The position numbers and the translations under genes were made by a program. The notes under the pieces were generated by a model. It was not told the origin of the DNA. It ran no database searches and was given only the letters and a program-made list of their open reading frames with translations. From Luteolibacter sp. LG18 (GTDB lineage: Bacteria; Verrucomicrobiota; Verrucomicrobiia; Verrucomicrobiales; Akkermansiaceae), in NCBI RefSeq assembly GCF_036322585.1, contig NZ_AP024600.1, forward strand, positions 1,550,001 to 1,614,000: a stretch of 64,000 nt of DNA, written 5' to 3'. This document shows positions 51,431 through 62,324 of the stretch, in pieces. Within the stretch, counting starts at the first letter, position 1. The number at the start of each line of letters is the position of its first letter.

Positions 51431-52426
51431 TTACACCAGCAGCATGCAGTCGCCGTAGCTGTAGAAGCGGTATTTCTCCTCCACCGCCTTGCGGTAGGCC
51501 TCCAGCACCAGCTCGCGGCCGGCGAAGGCGCTCACCAGCATGATGAGCGTGCTTTCCGGCAGGTGGAAGTTCGTCAGCAGCGCACCGATCACCCGGAAGT
51601 CGTACGGCGGGTAGATGAAGATGTCCGTCTCGCCGCGCTGGTCGGTTGCCGCCAGCCGCTGGCCTTCCGGGGCGGTCCGGCCGAGGTGCTCCAGCACGCG
51701 GGTCACGGTGGTGCCCACCGCCAGCACGCGGCCCGCGGCGTTGATTTTCCCCGCGGTGGCTCCGTCGATGGCGTAGCGCTCGGAGTGCATCTCGTGTTCC
51801 TCCGGGCGGTCCACCTGCACCGGGCGGAAGGTGCCCACGCCGACGTGGAGCGTCAGGAAATCATGCGGCACCCGCGCCAGTAGCTCCGGCGTGAAATGCA
51901 GCCCGGCGGTCGGCGCGGCGATCGCGCCCTCCTCCTTCGCGAACACCGTCTGGTAACGCTCGCGGTCGGAGATCTCGTCGTCGCGGTTCATGTAGTGCGG
52001 CAGCGCGAGGTGGCCGTGGGCGTCGAGGTCCACCGGCTCCGACCAGCGGATCAGGCGGTCGCCGTTCGGGAACACTTCTACGACGGTCCCAGTAGTTCCG
52101 CCGACCTCGACGACGCGGCCGATCCTCATCTTCTTGCCGGGGCGGACCAGGCAGCGCCATTCGACGGGCGAGAGCCGGTCGAGGCACAGCAGCTCGATGC
52201 TCCCGTCGTCCGAGAACACGCGGGCCGGGATGACGCGGGTGTTGTTGAGCATCACCAGGTCGTCCGGCCGCAGGTGGGATTCGAAGTCCCGGAACATCCC
52301 GTGCGTGATCGTGCCCTTCGCGCGGTCGATCACCATCATCCGGGAATCGGCGCGGCGCTCCAGTGGCCGGGAAGCGATCAGCTCCGGGGGAAGGTCGTAG
52401 TGGAAGTCGGACGTGCGCAGGCTCAC
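51431..52426 (-). CDS. queA: S-adenosylmethionine:tRNA ribosyltransferase-isomerase
   Basis: The 331-residue enzyme makes epoxyqueuosine from 7-aminomethyl-7-deazaguanine in tRNA during queuosine synthesis. Motifs are FHYDLPPELIASRPLERRAD, DDLVMLNNTRVIPARV, YQTVFAKEEGAIAAPTAGLH, LHVGVGTFRPV and TNFHLPESTLIMLVSAFAGR. The start is GTG 52426. The other que genes are elsewhere. Confidence 0.97.
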   Translation of the reverse strand: MSLRTSDFHYDLPPELIASRPLERRADSRMMVIDRAKGTITHGMFRDFESHLRPDDLVMLNNTRVIPARVFSDDGSIELLCLDRLSPVEWRCLVRPGKKMRIGRVVEVGGTTGTVVEVFPNGDRLIRWSEPVDLDAHGHLALPHYMNRDDEISDRERYQTVFAKEEGAIAAPTAGLHFTPELLARVPHDFLTLHVGVGTFRPVQVDRPEEHEMHSERYAIDGATAGKINAAGRVLAVGTTVTRVLEHLGRTAPEGQRLAATDQRGETDIFIYPPYDFRVIGALLTNFHLPESTLIMLVSAFAGRELVLEAYRKAVEEKYRFYSYGDCMLLV

Positions 52427-52593: not shown

Positions 52594-54273
52594 TCATCCG
52601 TGCAGCCGCGCCAGGAAGGCGTCGATGTGGCAGGGATCGGTCAGCGGGTTGAAGAACACCGCCTTCTCACCCGGGATCGGCTCCCACTTGTCGGTCTCGT
52701 CGTAGTTGGTATGGGTGGCGAACTGGACCCAGTTGGTGTAGAGCCCGCGCTTGCCGCGGCGCAGGAAGACCTCGCGGTGGTAGGCGTTGTGCTGCTGGAT
52801 GCGGCGGCGCCAGGCCGGGTCGGCGGAGATCTCCTTGTCCCGCGCCAGTTCCGCCACCGGGTCCTTCACTCGTGCCGGATCGTAGAGTCGGAAGGCTACG
52901 GACGGGCCGTGGTTCTTCGGCGCGATCACGCACGCGCCCTTCGTTTCGTTCAGGCGGCGGCGCAGGTGGTTCGCGTTCTGCAGGCTGTTCGCGATCAGGA
53001 TCCGGTAGCCGCGCTTGCCGAGGTACTGCATCGCCGAATACGCGCCGAACAGGCCGGCCGCGCCGCGCGAGCACTCGATCGTGCTCTGGAGGTGGGTCTG
53101 GCCCTGGATGTCCTTTTCGAAGTACGAGAAGTTCTCCGGGTCGTGCTCCAGCGCCTTCATCGAGTCGCGGTGCTTCACCATCACCAGGCTGGAAGTGTAG
53201 GGGACGTAGCCCCATTTCTGGAAATCCACGGTGAAGGAGTCGGCGTAGCGCAGCTCGCGGAAGCGGTCGACGTTCGCGCGCAGGCCTTCGAGCGTGGAGT
53301 CGTCGATCTCCAGCGGGTTCGCGTCGAAGTCGTAATCGAGGAAATAGATCAGCGGCCAGCCGACCGCGGCATCGACGTGGATGTGCGGCGGGGTGGTGAC
53401 GCCGAAGCGCTTGCACAGCCGCTGCGAAAGATCGTGCACCGGCTTCACGCGGTCCACGCCGAAGGTGTCGGTAGTGCCCATCGTCAGCATGATGGTCGGC
53501 ACCACGCAGCCGAGGCGGAAACAGGCGGTGAGCTGGCTTTCCAGGTCCTCCAGGTCGATGTCGTGGTCGTCGGTGACCTGGATGCGGATGGTTTTCTTCG
53601 CGAGGTTCACGCCGAGCAGCGACAGGTTCGTCGTGTTCGAATAGTGGCCGCCCTGCGAGTTGATCATGCGGTAGTCCTGGCCGTACTCGAGGCCGAGGTG
53701 CAGCGACTCCGGCATCGTCTTGCGGATGCCGAAGAGGTAGCCGTAGAGGTTACAAAACGTGCCGCCCTGGGTGAAAATGCCGGTCGCTTCCTCCGGATCG
53801 TAGCCCACGAGATTCGCGACCTGGCGAACCACCGTGCGCTCCAGTTCATCGGCCATCTCGCTGTATTCGCGGTAGACCAGGTTCGGGTTCGCGAGCGCGC
53901 CCACCATCGCGCCATGGATGGCGGGATCGCAGGGCATGGTCACCACGTTCTCGACGCTGGCCGGATCCTCCCAGGCCTTGGAAAGCGCGGCCGCGAACAC
54001 GAGGCGCTCGTGCAGCGCCCCCGGGGCCAGGCTGTCCTCCGGCACGTGGTCGTCGGCGCGGAGTTGGCCGAGCAGGTCCGGGCCGTTGGGGTAGATCCCG
54101 AGGCGGTCGGCGGGCGGCACGTGGTGCTTGCGGACCTCGATGATGCGGGCCATCGCCGGATCGCGGAACACCGGCCACAGCTCGGGATCGCGGGAGAAAT
54201 AGCGCGCGCGGACCTCCTCCAGTTGCTGGCGGAACACGGGCGACGCGGTAGGCGTGAGGACACTCGATTTCAT
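52594..54273 (-). CDS. Pyridoxal-phosphate-dependent group II decarboxylase family protein
   Basis: The 559-residue fold-type-I enzyme carries HVDAAVGWPLIYF (cofactor Asp) and the Schiff-base Lys in SFTVDFQKWGYVPYTSSLVM. EEATGIFTQGGTFCNLYGYL and QSTIECSRGAAGLFGAYSAM are also typical of glutamate/tyrosine/aromatic amino-acid decarboxylases. The amino-acid substrate cannot be told from sequence alone. An unusually long N-terminal region of about 120 residues precedes the family core. It may make GABA, tyramine or a related amine. No transporter is adjacent. Confidence 0.85.
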   Translation of the reverse strand: MKSSVLTPTASPVFRQQLEEVRARYFSRDPELWPVFRDPAMARIIEVRKHHVPPADRLGIYPNGPDLLGQLRADDHVPEDSLAPGALHERLVFAAALSKAWEDPASVENVVTMPCDPAIHGAMVGALANPNLVYREYSEMADELERTVVRQVANLVGYDPEEATGIFTQGGTFCNLYGYLFGIRKTMPESLHLGLEYGQDYRMINSQGGHYSNTTNLSLLGVNLAKKTIRIQVTDDHDIDLEDLESQLTACFRLGCVVPTIMLTMGTTDTFGVDRVKPVHDLSQRLCKRFGVTTPPHIHVDAAVGWPLIYFLDYDFDANPLEIDDSTLEGLRANVDRFRELRYADSFTVDFQKWGYVPYTSSLVMVKHRDSMKALEHDPENFSYFEKDIQGQTHLQSTIECSRGAAGLFGAYSAMQYLGKRGYRILIANSLQNANHLRRRLNETKGACVIAPKNHGPSVAFRLYDPARVKDPVAELARDKEISADPAWRRRIQQHNAYHREVFLRRGKRGLYTNWVQFATHTNYDETDKWEPIPGEKAVFFNPLTDPCHIDAFLARLHG

Positions 54274-54590
54274 GGGCGGCTGCGAATGGAACGGCCCCAG
54301 TGTTTCAGAAAGCCGCGGCGCTGTCTTGACCGATGTGCGCGCCGAACCCGCGGAGAACGGGCAAAGGAGTCGAGCCTTCAGGCGAGGAAGGTCTTTAGAG
54401 GGAGGCGGAGGCCTGAAGAGTTTGCTGGTTTGCAGTGTTCAGTTTTCAGGAAGAGAAGACTGGCGTCCCCGAATCTTTTTCATGGCATCCGGCTCTTCCC
54501 TTTTGCGCTTCGTGCGCCTTTTTGCGGCGAAGCACATCGAGAGCCTCCGCCTCCCTCTAAAGACCTTCCTCGCCTGAAGGCTCGACTCCC
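54274..54590. other. Gene-free interval containing the 224-bp repeat element
   Basis: There are 317 bases without a credible gene. About 224 of them are the inverted-repeat element at 54366-54589. The remaining left part (54274-54365) is the leader of the decarboxylase gene and shows no distinctive site. Confidence 0.5.
54366..54589. repeat. 224-bp MITE-like element with perfect 47-bp inverted repeats
   Basis: The arms at 54366-54412 and 54543-54589 are perfect inverse copies over 47 bases, beginning GGAGTCGAGCCTTCAGGCG. The 130-base centre encodes nothing and includes TTTGCGCTTCGTGCGCC followed by TTTTTGCGGC, reminiscent of other widespread repeats. A shorter, diverged relative lies at 33999-34136. 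No transposase is encoded and no clear target duplication was found. Confidence 0.85.
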
Positions 54591-56645
54591 TCAGAGACGG
54601 AACTCCGGGGTCAGCTCGCCCCAGATCCGCACCAGCGTGCGTTTGCCGGGGCCGTCGCCGGATTCGGTGGCGAGCAGCAGGCGGGTGCCGTCCTTCTCCA
54701 CGTCCCAGTCATCGGTCGCGCCGCCGGGTTTCCAGCCTTCGGCAAGGAGGTCGCGGAGAAACGCATCGCGGGTCTTGCCGGATTCCGACCACAGCTCGAT
54801 CTCGCGGCCCGGTTCCGGGGCTCGGCGGCAGGTCCATGGCGAGCGCCACGTCCACGTCCGCCGGCGTTCCCAGGCGCGCACGCGCGGTTGCAGCCACGTC
54901 AGCATGGCCAGTTGGCAGCGGGCCCGTGTGGAGTCGAACCGCGGCTCGATCCCGCGCAGCGGCATCATCCGGTCGATCACCGATTGGTAGCCCGCCTGGC
55001 CCATCGGCCCGTGGTAGATGATCGAGTCGGTCCCGGCGCGGAGCGGCCCGCCGTTGTAAACGAAGCCGTGCCAGATCGCCTCGCCAGTCGCAGTGAAGCG
55101 CCGCGGGTGTTTCTCCAGCAGCAGCTTCTCGGCCCGGCCGTAGCCGCGTTGCTGGCGCAGGAACGCGCGGAACGACGGCCGCCGCCAATGCCACACGAAG
55201 GCTCCCGGGGCGAACCCGAGGCGGTAGCCGGCATCGCGCAGCCGCCAGCAGAAATCGACATCGTCGCCCGCCGTGCGGAACCGTGGATCGAAGCCGCCGA
55301 TGGCATCGAATGCCTCCTTCGTCACCGCGATGTTGCAACCGGGCAGGTGCTCCGCTTCCTCGTCATCGAGCATCACGTGGCTCGGCGCGCCGGGCGCGGC
55401 GGAGACCACGGCCTCGGTGCGGGTGCGCGCAGGCGGCGGCAAATTCGGCCCTCCCGCTGCGGCGAAACGCCCGGAAGCAAAGGTCCGGCGCAGCCGGGTG
55501 ACCCACTCGCGGTCCGGTTCGCAATCGTCGTCGGTGAAGGCGAGGATCGTGCCGGTGGCGGCGGCGGCTCCCGCGTTGCGCGCCGCGCTCAGGCCGCCGG
55601 GAGACAGCCGCAGCAGCGTCACTTCCGGGAACCAACGAGCTACGAAGTCTCCCGTACCATCTTCGGAACCATCGTCCACCACGATCGTTTCGAAGTCGGA
55701 ATCCGTCATCCGGGCGATCGCTTCCAGGCAGCCGCCGATGCGCTCGCGGCCATTGCGGGTGCACACGATCACCGAGATCCGCGGCATGCCGCGGGGCGGG
55801 GCGGGGGAGTGGGCGAAGGCTTCGGTCACCGCGGCGAGCGCCGGTTTCTCCGTGCCATCGCGCCGGACCAGGCCGAAATCCCAGTCCATCACCTCCGCGC
55901 CCGCGTTCCACCAGCGGTCGCTCCATGCATAGGCGGTGAAGCCGGCGAGCTCCTCCTCCCGCGCCAGCCGGATCGCCTGGCCCAGCAGCTCCGCCTGGCG
56001 GTCCTCGCCGTTGCGGCGCGTGTCCAGGCCGAACTCCGAGACCACCACCGGCCGGTCGCCCGCGATGTGGTGGAGCCGCCGCAGGTAGCGCCGCAGCGCG
56101 GGCTCGTTTTCCAGATAGACGTTGAAGGCGGTGAAATCGGCGTTTTCCGGCTCCAGGTACTCGGTGCTCGGATAGTTGCCGTAGGCGAAAAGCAGGTGCG
56201 GCCCCAGCGAGCGGCCCAGCGTGATGAGGTCCTCCAGCGCGTGGCGCACCTTGGCCGGGCCCATCCAGCGGGCGAGGTCGGCGGGCACCTCGTTGCCGAT
56301 GTAAACCCCGGCCAGCGCCGGGTGGCCGCTGGTGTCGCGCAACCCCTCCGCGAGATCCACCCGCGCGGAGGCCAGCAGCTCGGGGCGGCGGAAGAAGTCC
56401 ATCGAGGACGCCCATTTCAAGCCGCCGAAGACCCGCAGGCCGTGCCGCAGCGCCGCGTCCAGCAGGTGGGCCGGCGGCATCTGATAGAGCCGCAGCGCGT
56501 TGAAACCGGCCGCCGCGATCCGCGCGAAATCCGGCTCGAACACCGTGGGCCAACCGCCCGGAAACGGCCCGTAGGTCACCGCCCGGACGTGGACACGATC
56601 CTCCCCGGCGCGGAAGAATTTCCCGTCGGTTTGGAGGCGTTCCAT
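54591..56645 (-). CDS. Glycoside hydrolase-glycosyltransferase family 2 fusion
   Basis: A protein of about 684 residues joins two enzymes. Residues 10-300 form a TIM-barrel glycosidase of clan-A type, with the acid/base candidate Glu in VYIGNEVPADLARW and the nucleophile Glu in RPVVVSEFGLDTRR. Residues about 315-545 are a GT2 glycosyltransferase: ISVIVCTRNGRERIGGCLEA, VVDDGSEDGTGDF, DXD-like AFTDDDCEPDREW, and GDDVDFCWRLRDAGYRLG. The last 140 residues were not recognised. There is no signal peptide or membrane helix. ATG 56645 starts directly before the glycosidase; the frame stays open to 56723. Fusions of this kind are known in glucan synthesis and remodelling, but the product here is unknown. 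Confidence 0.82.
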   Translation of the reverse strand: MERLQTDGKFFRAGEDRVHVRAVTYGPFPGGWPTVFEPDFARIAAAGFNALRLYQMPPAHLLDAALRHGLRVFGGLKWASSMDFFRRPELLASARVDLAEGLRDTSGHPALAGVYIGNEVPADLARWMGPAKVRHALEDLITLGRSLGPHLLFAYGNYPSTEYLEPENADFTAFNVYLENEPALRRYLRRLHHIAGDRPVVVSEFGLDTRRNGEDRQAELLGQAIRLAREEELAGFTAYAWSDRWWNAGAEVMDWDFGLVRRDGTEKPALAAVTEAFAHSPAPPRGMPRISVIVCTRNGRERIGGCLEAIARMTDSDFETIVVDDGSEDGTGDFVARWFPEVTLLRLSPGGLSAARNAGAAAATGTILAFTDDDCEPDREWVTRLRRTFASGRFAAAGGPNLPPPARTRTEAVVSAAPGAPSHVMLDDEEAEHLPGCNIAVTKEAFDAIGGFDPRFRTAGDDVDFCWRLRDAGYRLGFAPGAFVWHWRRPSFRAFLRQQRGYGRAEKLLLEKHPRRFTATGEAIWHGFVYNGGPLRAGTDSIIYHGPMGQAGYQSVIDRMMPLRGIEPRFDSTRARCQLAMLTWLQPRVRAWERRRTWTWRSPWTCRRAPEPGREIELWSESGKTRDAFLRDLLAEGWKPGGATDDWDVEKDGTRLLLATESGDGPGKRTLVRIWGELTPEFRL

Positions 56646-56701: not shown

Positions 56702-56926
56702 TCATGCCGCCAGCACGCCGCACAGCGCGGCCAGCAGCAGCATGCCGCAGAACCGGTCATAGCGCTCCCGCAGCTCCGGCTGGGGCTGGCACTCCGCCAT
56801 GATCCCCAGGACGACCGCCGCCACCAGACAGAGGACCGCGCCCCCGTAGCCGATGGCCTTCTCGACGGGATGATCCCGCGTGCAGGAACAGGCGAGGAGG
56901 GCGACGACCACGGACAGCGGACGCAT
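56702..56926 (-). CDS. Small membrane or secreted hypothetical protein
   Basis: The protein of about 74 residues has a leader (RPLSVVVALLACSCTRDHPV) that could be a lipoprotein signal with Cys in ACSC, then a membrane helix (GYGGAVLCLVAAVVLGIMAE) and a C-terminal helix (FCGMLLLAALCGVLAA). ATG 56926 is used. It lies just upstream of the fusion gene on the same strand, with a gap of 56 bases. No family is recognised. Confidence 0.55.
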   Translation of the reverse strand: MRPLSVVVALLACSCTRDHPVEKAIGYGGAVLCLVAAVVLGIMAECQPQPELRERYDRFCGMLLLAALCGVLAA

Positions 56927-59905: not shown

Positions 59906-60020
59906 CGGCCCGCTTGTATCGTTGCGACGTCGCATTCCTACACGTGCGGCGGTTCGGTCGTTTTGAATAGCCGCAGGTGCTTGTGGGTCGGCGTGGATTG
60001 TGGTCGGGATGGAGGTCTGC

Positions 60021-62324
60021 ATGAAGACGTCCATCCTGCCGCTCCTGGTTCTGGCCAGCCACGTTTCCGCCGCACCGCTTTCGAAGCACGTGGTCGGAAA
60101 CGTGAACCGCTACCTGGCGAACTCGGCACGCACCGATCTCATTGGCCCGGAGATGTGGACCTGCCCGAAGGAGGTGAGCGACGAGCGGGTGTCGAAGCCG
60201 GACCAGAAGGACGGCACCGTGGTCGGCCCGCAGTTGCCGGGCGAGAACTGGGGCCCGCCGGGCTTCGGATTGCAGGGCGTCTTCTGCGCCGGCCATCAGA
60301 CCGGGTTGCAGGATCTCATCGGGCTCGCCGCCAGCGAGACGCGGGATGGCAAGACGGTGACGCTGGAGTTCGTGCCGACCCGCCACCAGTGGACGCCCGC
60401 CTGGGAGGTGAGCAGCTACCGGCCGCTGCCCACCGGGGCGGCGGGCACTTCGCCGCTGGCGGGAAATCTTTCGATCAAGGAGACGAAGTGCATCACGCCG
60501 GAGAACGTCTTCGTCGCCGAGCTGGAGATTCTCAACGACCAGCGCGAAGCCGGCACCTTCGATTTCGAACTCGTCGCTCCGGATCTCAAAATGAGCGGTG
60601 AAGGAGCCGTGACCTTCACCGCCATCACCAATGCCGGTGGCATCGCCCGCGAGGTGCCGGGGCAGAAGGAGCGCCAGGGTTGGCCGGTCCATGGCAGCGG
60701 CTGGCTCGCGGCAAAAGGGGATCTCACTTTCGGAGAAGGTGTCCAGCTCCCACCACAGCGCACGGTGAAACTCCGATACGCCTTCGCCATCGACGAAGTG
60801 GGCACCACCAACGCGCGGGCGCGGGTCGAGGCGGTGCTGGCGGAGGCCAATCCCTTCCAGCGGAGCGAGACCGCCTTCAACGCGTGGTATGCCGCGAACG
60901 TGCCCGCGTTCCAATGCGGCGATCCCGACCTGCTGAAGCTTTACTACTACCGCTGGCTGGTGGTGAAGCGATCGGTCCACGATCCCAAGAAGTTCATCGC
61001 CGGGCATCCTTACAAGCGGCCCGCGATCTACGAGAGCCCGGTGGGCGATTGGTTCTGCGCGGTGATCGGCCTGCCCATCCCGGTGCAGATCGAGGAGATC
61101 CGCTGGTGCCGCGACATCACGCCGGGCAAGAACCAGATTCTGAACTGGGTGGACAACGTCCATTACCAGTACCGCGACTACCTCCAGTTCACACCCGCCG
61201 CGATGTGGAACTTCTACAAGCTCCACCCCGATCCGGAGATCCGCGCCGCGGTGGCGCAGCCCGCGACCGATTACGCGTGGAAGGACGTGCCGGTCCATGG
61301 TCAGCCGCAGCTCCCGGTGCAGGAGGGGAGCTGGCCGACCGGCGCGGAGTACCAGCCGAACTTCTACCAGTTCACCAAGCCGGAGCCGTGGGACTGGCGG
61401 CACGACGTGGAAGGCCACAAGCAGGGCTTCCCGTACGCGAAATCGATCCGCCTCGACAAGGCCAGCTTCACCATCGCGAACCTCTACGGTGCCGCCCATT
61501 TCATGGAGGAGCTGGGGAACGTGAAGAGCTTCACCGATTCCCGCAACCAGGCCGACCGGATGCTCAGGACCATCGAGGACAGGCACTGGAAGGACGGCTT
61601 CTTCTACGCCGCCGATCCCGAGACGTACGCGCTCGCCGACCAGGCCGCGTGTTACGACGGCTTCCTGCCGTTCTTGTTCGGCATGATACGGGATCCGCAG
61701 TATTTCCGCGCCTTCGACCGCTTCTTCGATCCCGCGTGGTTCTGGACCGAGTACCCCATCACCACCGTGGCGCGGACGAATCCGATGTACTGGAGCGGCA
61801 ATGCCATCGCCGGTCCCACAGCCTCCAGCGTGTCCCAGCCGCACGGCTACCCGTGTTCCTGGAACGGCCCGATGTGGAACTACAACAACAGCGCGATGTG
61901 CGAGGCGCTCGGTTCGGTGGCGTCGTCACCGGGCGGCGAGCGCTATCGCGACGGCTGGCTCGAATTCCACCGCCGCTGGTCGGACAGCCACTTCATCTAC
62001 GGCGACCGCTCGGTGCCGTGCGCGATGGAGCACCTGCGCCCCACCGACGCGGCGAACTTCCGCCGCCGGGTGGTGGACTATTTCCACAGCGCGTGGCTGG
62101 ACTCCACCTTCAGCTACTGGGCGGGGATCCGCGTCACGGACGACCGGAAGGCGGTGGTGTTCGATCCGTTCACGAAGGAGGACTTCCGGTTGGAGAACGT
62201 CCCGGCGGGCGGGCGGGAGCTGACCTTCGTGCAGGAGGATGGGAGGAAGCGCGTGCTCGATGCCTCGGGCAAGGTGCTTGCGGAGGGGCCGGCGGGGAAG
62301 GCGCTGGAGGTAAGCGCGAAGTAA
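60021..62324 (+). CDS. Secreted MGH1/GH63-like glycosidase
   Basis: This exported protein of about 767 residues has a signal peptide (SILPLLVLASHVSAAPLSKH), a beta-rich N-terminal domain of about 260 residues and an (alpha/alpha)6 barrel with ESPVGDWFCAVIGLPIPVQI, CSWNGPMWNYNNSAMCEALG and YWAGIRVTDDRKAVVFDPFT. This matches the mannosylglycerate-hydrolase/GH63-type fold of inverting glycosidases. ATG 60021 has a strong ribosome binding site, GGAGGT, five bases upstream, which settles the start against an upstream in-frame ATG at 60000. The substrate is unknown. It is followed directly by the palindromic repeat at 62325-62396. Confidence 0.82.
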   Translation: MKTSILPLLVLASHVSAAPLSKHVVGNVNRYLANSARTDLIGPEMWTCPKEVSDERVSKPDQKDGTVVGPQLPGENWGPPGFGLQGVFCAGHQTGLQDLIGLAASETRDGKTVTLEFVPTRHQWTPAWEVSSYRPLPTGAAGTSPLAGNLSIKETKCITPENVFVAELEILNDQREAGTFDFELVAPDLKMSGEGAVTFTAITNAGGIAREVPGQKERQGWPVHGSGWLAAKGDLTFGEGVQLPPQRTVKLRYAFAIDEVGTTNARARVEAVLAEANPFQRSETAFNAWYAANVPAFQCGDPDLLKLYYYRWLVVKRSVHDPKKFIAGHPYKRPAIYESPVGDWFCAVIGLPIPVQIEEIRWCRDITPGKNQILNWVDNVHYQYRDYLQFTPAAMWNFYKLHPDPEIRAAVAQPATDYAWKDVPVHGQPQLPVQEGSWPTGAEYQPNFYQFTKPEPWDWRHDVEGHKQGFPYAKSIRLDKASFTIANLYGAAHFMEELGNVKSFTDSRNQADRMLRTIEDRHWKDGFFYAADPETYALADQAACYDGFLPFLFGMIRDPQYFRAFDRFFDPAWFWTEYPITTVARTNPMYWSGNAIAGPTASSVSQPHGYPCSWNGPMWNYNNSAMCEALGSVASSPGGERYRDGWLEFHRRWSDSHFIYGDRSVPCAMEHLRPTDAANFRRRVVDYFHSAWLDSTFSYWAGIRVTDDRKAVVFDPFTKEDFRLENVPAGGRELTFVQEDGRKRVLDASGKVLAEGPAGKALEVSAK

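Follow-up and report, generated by a model that had tools for sequence, protein, structure and literature searches.

A glycosidase-glycosyltransferase fusion protein of the Verrucomicrobiia with a possible role in cytoplasmic glycan assembly

In Luteolibacter sp. LG18, a single gene encodes a polypeptide that combines a clan-A glycosidase-like barrel, a complete GT2 glycosyltransferase domain and a small C-terminal domain. The gene lies in a window of 64,000 nucleotides, the whole stretch of DNA that was analyzed, and its relatives are found throughout the class Verrucomicrobiia, with the predicted active sites of both domains intact. Our preferred reading, to which we assign a probability of roughly 45%, is that the fusion is a cytoplasmic enzyme of glycan or glycolipid assembly, in which the glycosidase (GH) domain processes the product of the GT2 domain. 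The original prediction for this locus had recognized a clan-A glycosidase with both catalytic glutamates, fused to a GT2 domain with DDD and GDDVD motifs, and this is borne out by a structural model, by its superposition on solved enzymes and by conservation in 164 of 164 relatives. In the open-licence literature of PubMed Central, we found no description of this GH-GT2 fusion family.

The coding sequence runs on the minus strand from an ATG at position 56645 to a stop codon ending at 54591 (Table 1). An alternative GTG start at 56723 would add 26 residues to the protein; we kept the ATG, because several relatives have a methionine at the same place. The AlphaFold2 model of the fusion protein has a pLDDT of 87.4 and a pTM of 0.86.

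Table 1. Features of the fusion gene and its downstream neighbors, in window coordinates
Feature	Position	Strand	Basis or remark
GH-GT2 fusion CDS, 684 aa	54591..56645	-	Open frame and full-length relatives
N-terminal clan-A TIM barrel, residues 1-283, GH2/GH157-like	55797..56645	-	AlphaFold2 model; VIA-align Z ~29-30; GH157 profile E 9e-19
N118-E119, predicted acid/base of the glycosidase	56289..56294	-	Invariant in 164/164; aligned with NEP of LaGH157
E204, predicted nucleophile	56034..56036	-	Invariant in 164/164; aligned with LaGH157 E224
GT2 (GT-A) domain, ~residues 288-535	55041..55784	-	PF00535, 90.9 bits; Foldseek GT-A matches
D372-D373-D374 (DXD)	55524..55532	-	D372 and D374 invariant in 164/164; position 373 varies
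GDDVD, residues 460-464	55254..55268	-	Invariant in 164/164
C-terminal helix and small alpha/beta domain, residues 566-684	54594..54950	-	Alignment; AlphaFold2 pLDDT 86.6
Pyridoxal-dependent decarboxylase gene	52594..54273	-	Between fusion gene and queA
queA	51431..52426	-	Downstream, same strand as fusion

A Pfam scan of the LG18 protein returned GT2-type families only, with no GH family reaching its cut-off. We therefore base the assignment of the N-terminal domain on a profile match to GH157, on Pfam matches in two long relatives and on the AlphaFold2 model. When a profile built from 39 sequences (A1) was compared with solved structures, the best GH match was the endo-beta-1,3-glucanase LaGH157 (PDB 9fz9; E 9e-19), followed by weaker matches to GH158 (3.4e-4) and to GH2 proteins (1.1e-3 and worse). 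Of the long relatives, L131 and L132 were scanned, and both exceed the threshold for PF02836, the GH2 TIM barrel (31.8 and 28 bits against 21); L131 does so for PF03198 as well (GH72; 33.1 bits against 25.9). Among the 39 A1 members, PF02836 had no match at E<=0.01. The modelled barrel superposes on GH2 beta-glucuronidase/galacturonidase chains with a Z-score of 29.9 (rmsd 2.6-3.1 A over 271-273 residues) and, in what amounts to a tie, on GH157 with a Z-score of 29.4 (rmsd 2.4 A, 290 aligned). Since GH2 enzymes of the uronic-acid type and GH157 superpose equally well, the fold is no guide to the sugar. Enzymes of family GH2 have a TIM barrel that is preceded by a sugar-binding and an immunoglobulin-like beta domain. 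We rejected membership in this family, given that the barrel of the fusion starts at residue 1 and that the A1 members lack a PF02836 match.

Retaining glycosidases of clan GH-A are TIM barrels with an asparagine-glutamate pair after strand beta-4 and a second glutamate after beta-7. In the fusion, E204 (motif VVSEFG) lies opposite E224 of LaGH157, which carries a mutation in PDB 9g4n, and the direct alignment places N118-E119 (motif VYIGNEV) on the corresponding NE pair, at an identity of ~17-18%. The N-terminal domain thus has the modelled barrel, the two predicted glutamate sites and the conservation expected of clan GH-A. That the modelled domain superposes on active GH barrels also speaks against a refuting outcome named with the original prediction, an N-terminal domain without a catalytic groove. 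The family assignment proposed there is clear for the GT2 part, by PF00535; the GH part can be placed, by profile, nearest to GH157 among solved structures, at the low identity just given. The GH157 structures include complexes with laminari-oligosaccharides, and one study describes a GH157 enzyme as active on linear beta-1,3-glucan (PMC10229575). A beta-glucan is therefore our best guess at the substrate, and it is so only because the nearest GH relatives act on such a glucan.

The GT2 domain is assigned more directly: PF00535 scores 90.9 bits against a cut-off of 23.3, the DXD motif is present, and the Foldseek matches other than GH157 include many GT-A enzymes (GalNAc-T2, WrtF, 6p61). Its best NCBIfam match is MftF, the mycofactocin glycosyltransferase, at 167.6 bits. 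A mycofactocin role was rejected, as this score falls below the cut-off of 280 and MftC exceeds its own cut-off in none of seven genomes; moreover, the annotation of the single MftF locus inspected shows no GH domain, whereas the LG18 protein has one fused to its GT2 part.

Both predicted active sites are strictly conserved. In 164 distinct sequences (84 close-type and 80 class-level, left from 182 collected proteins after removal of 18 duplicates), N118, E119, N175, E204, W245, W255, D372, D374 and the GDDVD motif are invariant, where up to three retained sequences read as gaps at some columns, and R52 is kept in 162, the other two having gaps. This invariance of the predicted catalytic residues argues that the combination of domains and motifs is no chance observation.

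The fusion is also widespread. Of 113 genomes sampled within the class Verrucomicrobiia, 73 have a match at E<=1e-40, covering 52 of 70 genera; 71 of the 73 have a single match, G158 has two copies, and the two rows of G080 are pieces of one frame. A draw of 194 genomes across the phylum gave 14 matches at E<=1e-30, all of them from the same class, and a draw of relatives gave matches in 59 of 59 genomes at E<=0.001, many of which cover GT2 only. Among 72,556 plasmid records, 79 had a match and none reached 80% query coverage; the 40 plasmid matches listed all fall on the GT2 part alone. To judge from this distribution, the fusion is old within the Verrucomicrobiia. It appears to be dispensable, because genus g18 of the same family does without it: the gene is absent from the 15 listed g18 genomes of the class draw and from two more, G309 and G316, listed in the phylum draw. 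The g18 genomes without the fusion are up to 100% complete, and one of them, G077, has LpxK.

Two further checks proposed at the outset concerned the integrity of the fusion. Among the full-length matches listed, none has a frameshift between the domains or an internal stop; the one broken frame, which spans just a portion of the match and lies in a locus of a low-coverage metagenome-assembled genome (L066, ~2.5x), is most simply an assembly error. As for organisms with the two domains as separate neighbors, GH and GT2 were never found apart among the relatives examined.

The highest mean hydropathy (Kyte-Doolittle) over 19 residues in the LG18 protein is 0.96, from which we conclude, on a plain hydropathy scan rather than a topology predictor, that it has neither a transmembrane segment nor a signal peptide, as originally stated. 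By the same count, hydrophobic segments follow the GDDVD motif in 79 of 80 class-level relatives, which are mostly 800-940 residues long, compared with 0 of 101 close, Akkermansiaceae-type proteins. According to the alignment, the GT2 domain of the long relatives is followed by a hydrophobic hairpin, the small alpha/beta domain and a second hairpin. The class-level exception, L211 (G041, family f6), adjoins the Akkermansiaceae type in the tree, and its position together with its lack of hydrophobic segments suggests, most simply, that both hairpins disappeared a single time, in the lineage ancestral to f1, the family of LG18, and its neighbor f6. That the LG18 protein lacks a membrane helix, which the original prediction had found odd, is confirmed, and it ceases to be a puzzle: judged from these sequences, the soluble state of the LG18 lineage is a derived one. 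Ahead of GDDVD, hydrophobic segments are missing from 77 of the 80 class-level proteins and from 98 of the 101 close ones, and the segments found there (in class-level and listed proteins) are marginal, at 1.61-1.69. An even number of membrane passes would keep both catalytic domains of the long form on the cytoplasmic side. The C-terminal alpha/beta domain, which has no PDB match at E<=0.001, is conserved and was retained although the hairpins flanking it were lost.

A second feature of many relatives is a transporter gene. Among 80 class- and order-level loci, a chosen subset of the matches from which two with <300 bp of downstream sequence were left out, 21 of 78 have a co-oriented ABC exporter gene directly downstream of the fusion gene, and these 21 span 10 of the 37 families in the sample. 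The gap between the two genes is between -54 and +80 bp in 16 of the 21 loci; the other five overlap more, which we put down to over-long frames, as gaps were taken from the earliest start codon. Three linked exporters were scanned and carry PF00664 and PF00005 (ABC_membrane and ABC_tran) in one chain, the domain content of an MsbA-type ABC exporter. A tree rooted at the midpoint was built from 33 exporters of 26 genomes, and some of its inner splits are weakly supported; all 13 linked exporters that it includes share one side of a split that has a support of 0.99. Six unlinked orthologs (G065, G093, G102, G133, G151 and G166) group with them, apart from the other paralogs. Identity to the exporter of L141 is 40-65% for other linked exporters, 49-57% for the six unlinked orthologs and 30-44% for other exporters. 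No adjacent exporter is present in 57 of the 78 loci, and in the LG18 genome we found no close ortholog of the linked exporter, the best matches having 32-38% identity and none lying near the fusion gene; in G163, G083 and the Verrucomicrobiales checked, the best matches also reach only 32-38%. Based on the exporter tree, we infer that the pairing of fusion and exporter is ancestral, that it was broken up in several lineages and that the exporter was lost or replaced in the Verrucomicrobiales. The neighbors of non-adjacent exporters, of which seven of ten proteins were scanned, have no common theme.

The resemblance to MsbA raises the best of the alternatives, namely that the fusion decorates lipid A-core or another inner-leaflet glycolipid, that the neighboring ABC protein is an MsbA-like flippase and that the task of the GH domain is to take off misplaced or temporary sugars ahead of the flipping step. 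The three exporters scanned do score 378, 450 and 395 bits with TIGR02203 (MsbA), and G163 has LpxK and a lipid A acyltransferase gene at ~4 kb from the fusion (L133 2064-4189). These scores remain below the equivalog cut-off of 602, however, so that an identity of the linked exporter as the MsbA lipid A flippase is unsupported. The idea that it could be the sole MsbA of small genomes is likewise weakened, as the linked genomes checked have further PF00664 proteins. LpxK, moreover, is present in 28 of 28 genomes and lies within 10 kb of the fusion in only two of them (G163 and G043). As the 28 include G077 and G073, which have no fusion, lipid A synthesis does not depend on it. On balance, we regard a lipid A-type role as unlikely, if still the strongest competitor.

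Slightly less probable again is a role for the GH barrel as a proofreading or recycling hydrolase, which would degrade the GT2 product, a storage or osmoregulatory glycan, in the cytoplasm, the soluble form being export-free. The solubility of all 101 close relatives and the missing exporter ortholog in LG18 would fit such a role, whereas the ancestral form was probably membrane-bound and exporter-linked, and to keep a synthesizing and a degrading site under strict conservation would be wasteful unless the product is processed. Finally, cytoplasmic glycosidases fused to glycosyltransferases are unusual, which might suggest a catalytically silent GH domain serving the GT2 domain as an acceptor-binding module, yet R52, N118, E119, N175, E204 and W245 are kept to the extent described above, which is unexpected of a silent barrel and makes this improbable.

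We thus favor an assembly enzyme, and known systems offer two models for how it may work. GH17 is a family of clan GH-A. Proteobacterial GH17-GT2 proteins (Glt1/Glt3/Glt7 and the pseudomonad 'Orphan'/NdvB) have, like the fusion, an N-terminal clan-A GH and a C-terminal GT2 domain on one chain; according to two studies, their GH17 part is a characterized beta-1,3-glucan transglycosylase (PMC11005184, PMC10237404), and one proposal is that it cleaves and cyclizes the GT2 product (PMC10237404). In these proteins, the GH17 domain is predicted to be periplasmic, and a transmembrane region connects it to GT2. By contrast, relatives of the fusion mostly have no hydrophobic segment between GH and GT2, and their hairpins, if any, come after GT2. 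As there is no GH17 domain either, with no GH17 Pfam match in the 39 A1 members at E<=0.01, we rejected membership in the Glt/NdvB type.

The second model is Cgs of Agrobacterium, the product of which is reportedly exported by an ABC transporter. Like the long relatives of the fusion, Cgs unites a glycosyltransferase, chain-processing domains and membrane helices in a single protein. The domains themselves differ: Cgs carries GT84, a GH144-like cyclase and GH94, the fusion a GH2/157-like barrel and a plain GT2. GH94 was found in none of the 39 A1 members, and the LG18 protein has no family over the cut-off other than GT2. GH17 and GH94 are also absent from the Foldseek and VIA matches listed, which we do not count as evidence. 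All soluble domains of Cgs are reported to lie in the cytoplasm (PMC10901819), so a cytoplasmic location, which the original prediction had considered odd for a pair of polysaccharide-handling enzymes, has a precedent and need not be viewed as such. LaGH157 shares the barrel fold and both glutamate positions with the fusion (9fz9/9g4n/9g5g); its solved chain of 537 residues contains no glycosyltransferase. By analogy, we read the fusion as resembling Cgs and the GH17-GT2 proteins in logic while belonging to a different family.

The GT2 domain would add sugars from a nucleotide-sugar donor, and the fused retaining barrel would cut the growing chain or, more likely, transfer pieces of it, thereby controlling how long or branched the chain becomes or whether it is closed. 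Ancestrally, the C-terminal hairpins may have held the enzyme on the inner membrane, from where the product would be handed to the MsbA-type exporter encoded by the following gene. That both domains act on the same glycan or glycolipid, as originally suggested, gains from the joint conservation of their sites, from the domains never being apart and from the adjacent exporter in many relatives; between trimming and transglycosylation, we can only infer a preference. A chain with two invariant sites, in a protein that was probably once tied to the membrane and to an exporter, is more in keeping with assembly than with the digestion of food. The export step cannot be directly transferred to LG18, where the closest exporters, at 32-38% identity, are unlinked. 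There, with the hairpins lost (f1, f6) and no close exporter ortholog, the enzyme presumably works in soluble form, either on a lipid-linked substrate, which a different transporter would export, or on a glycan of the cytosol.

The genes around the fusion in LG18 give no functional clue. Of 80 loci from close relatives, 41 also contain the downstream gene queA, in most cases a short way behind the fusion, and it is probably a positional neighbor that takes no part in the function of the fusion; the decarboxylase gene is found in 0 of these 80 loci, and an upstream glutamate dehydrogenase gene is kept in 12. No biosynthetic cluster was recognized among the neighbors scanned within the window. 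The gap between the decarboxylase and fusion genes holds an inverted repeat whose arms of 47 bp match perfectly and are separated by 130 bp (54366-54589), and which looks like a MITE-type repeat. Counting this copy, the LG18 genome has 21 places where 195 or more of the element's 233 bases are covered at >=74% identity, next to many partial copies. Farther away, the plus-strand product of 60000-62324 carries a GH domain resembling mannosylglycerate hydrolase (PF22422, 7.4e-16).

More tentatively, and with the odds clearly against so specific a picture, the Verrucomicrobiia may have in common an exported oligosaccharide or glycolipid that is so far undescribed. A GT2-transglycosidase would make it on the cytoplasmic face of the membrane and a dedicated ABC exporter would move it, as an independent counterpart of the cyclic-glucan systems, and the enzyme would have become soluble in the LG18 lineage. 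A mostly single-copy protein with two invariant sites in many of the sampled families points to a glycan that has apparently not yet been sought, in bacteria that are common in soil and water. The fusion gene, which the sampled g18 genomes lack, is also a marker gene, and the soluble two-site enzyme of the LG18 lineage could allow the coupling of sugar addition and chain remodeling to be studied without membranes.
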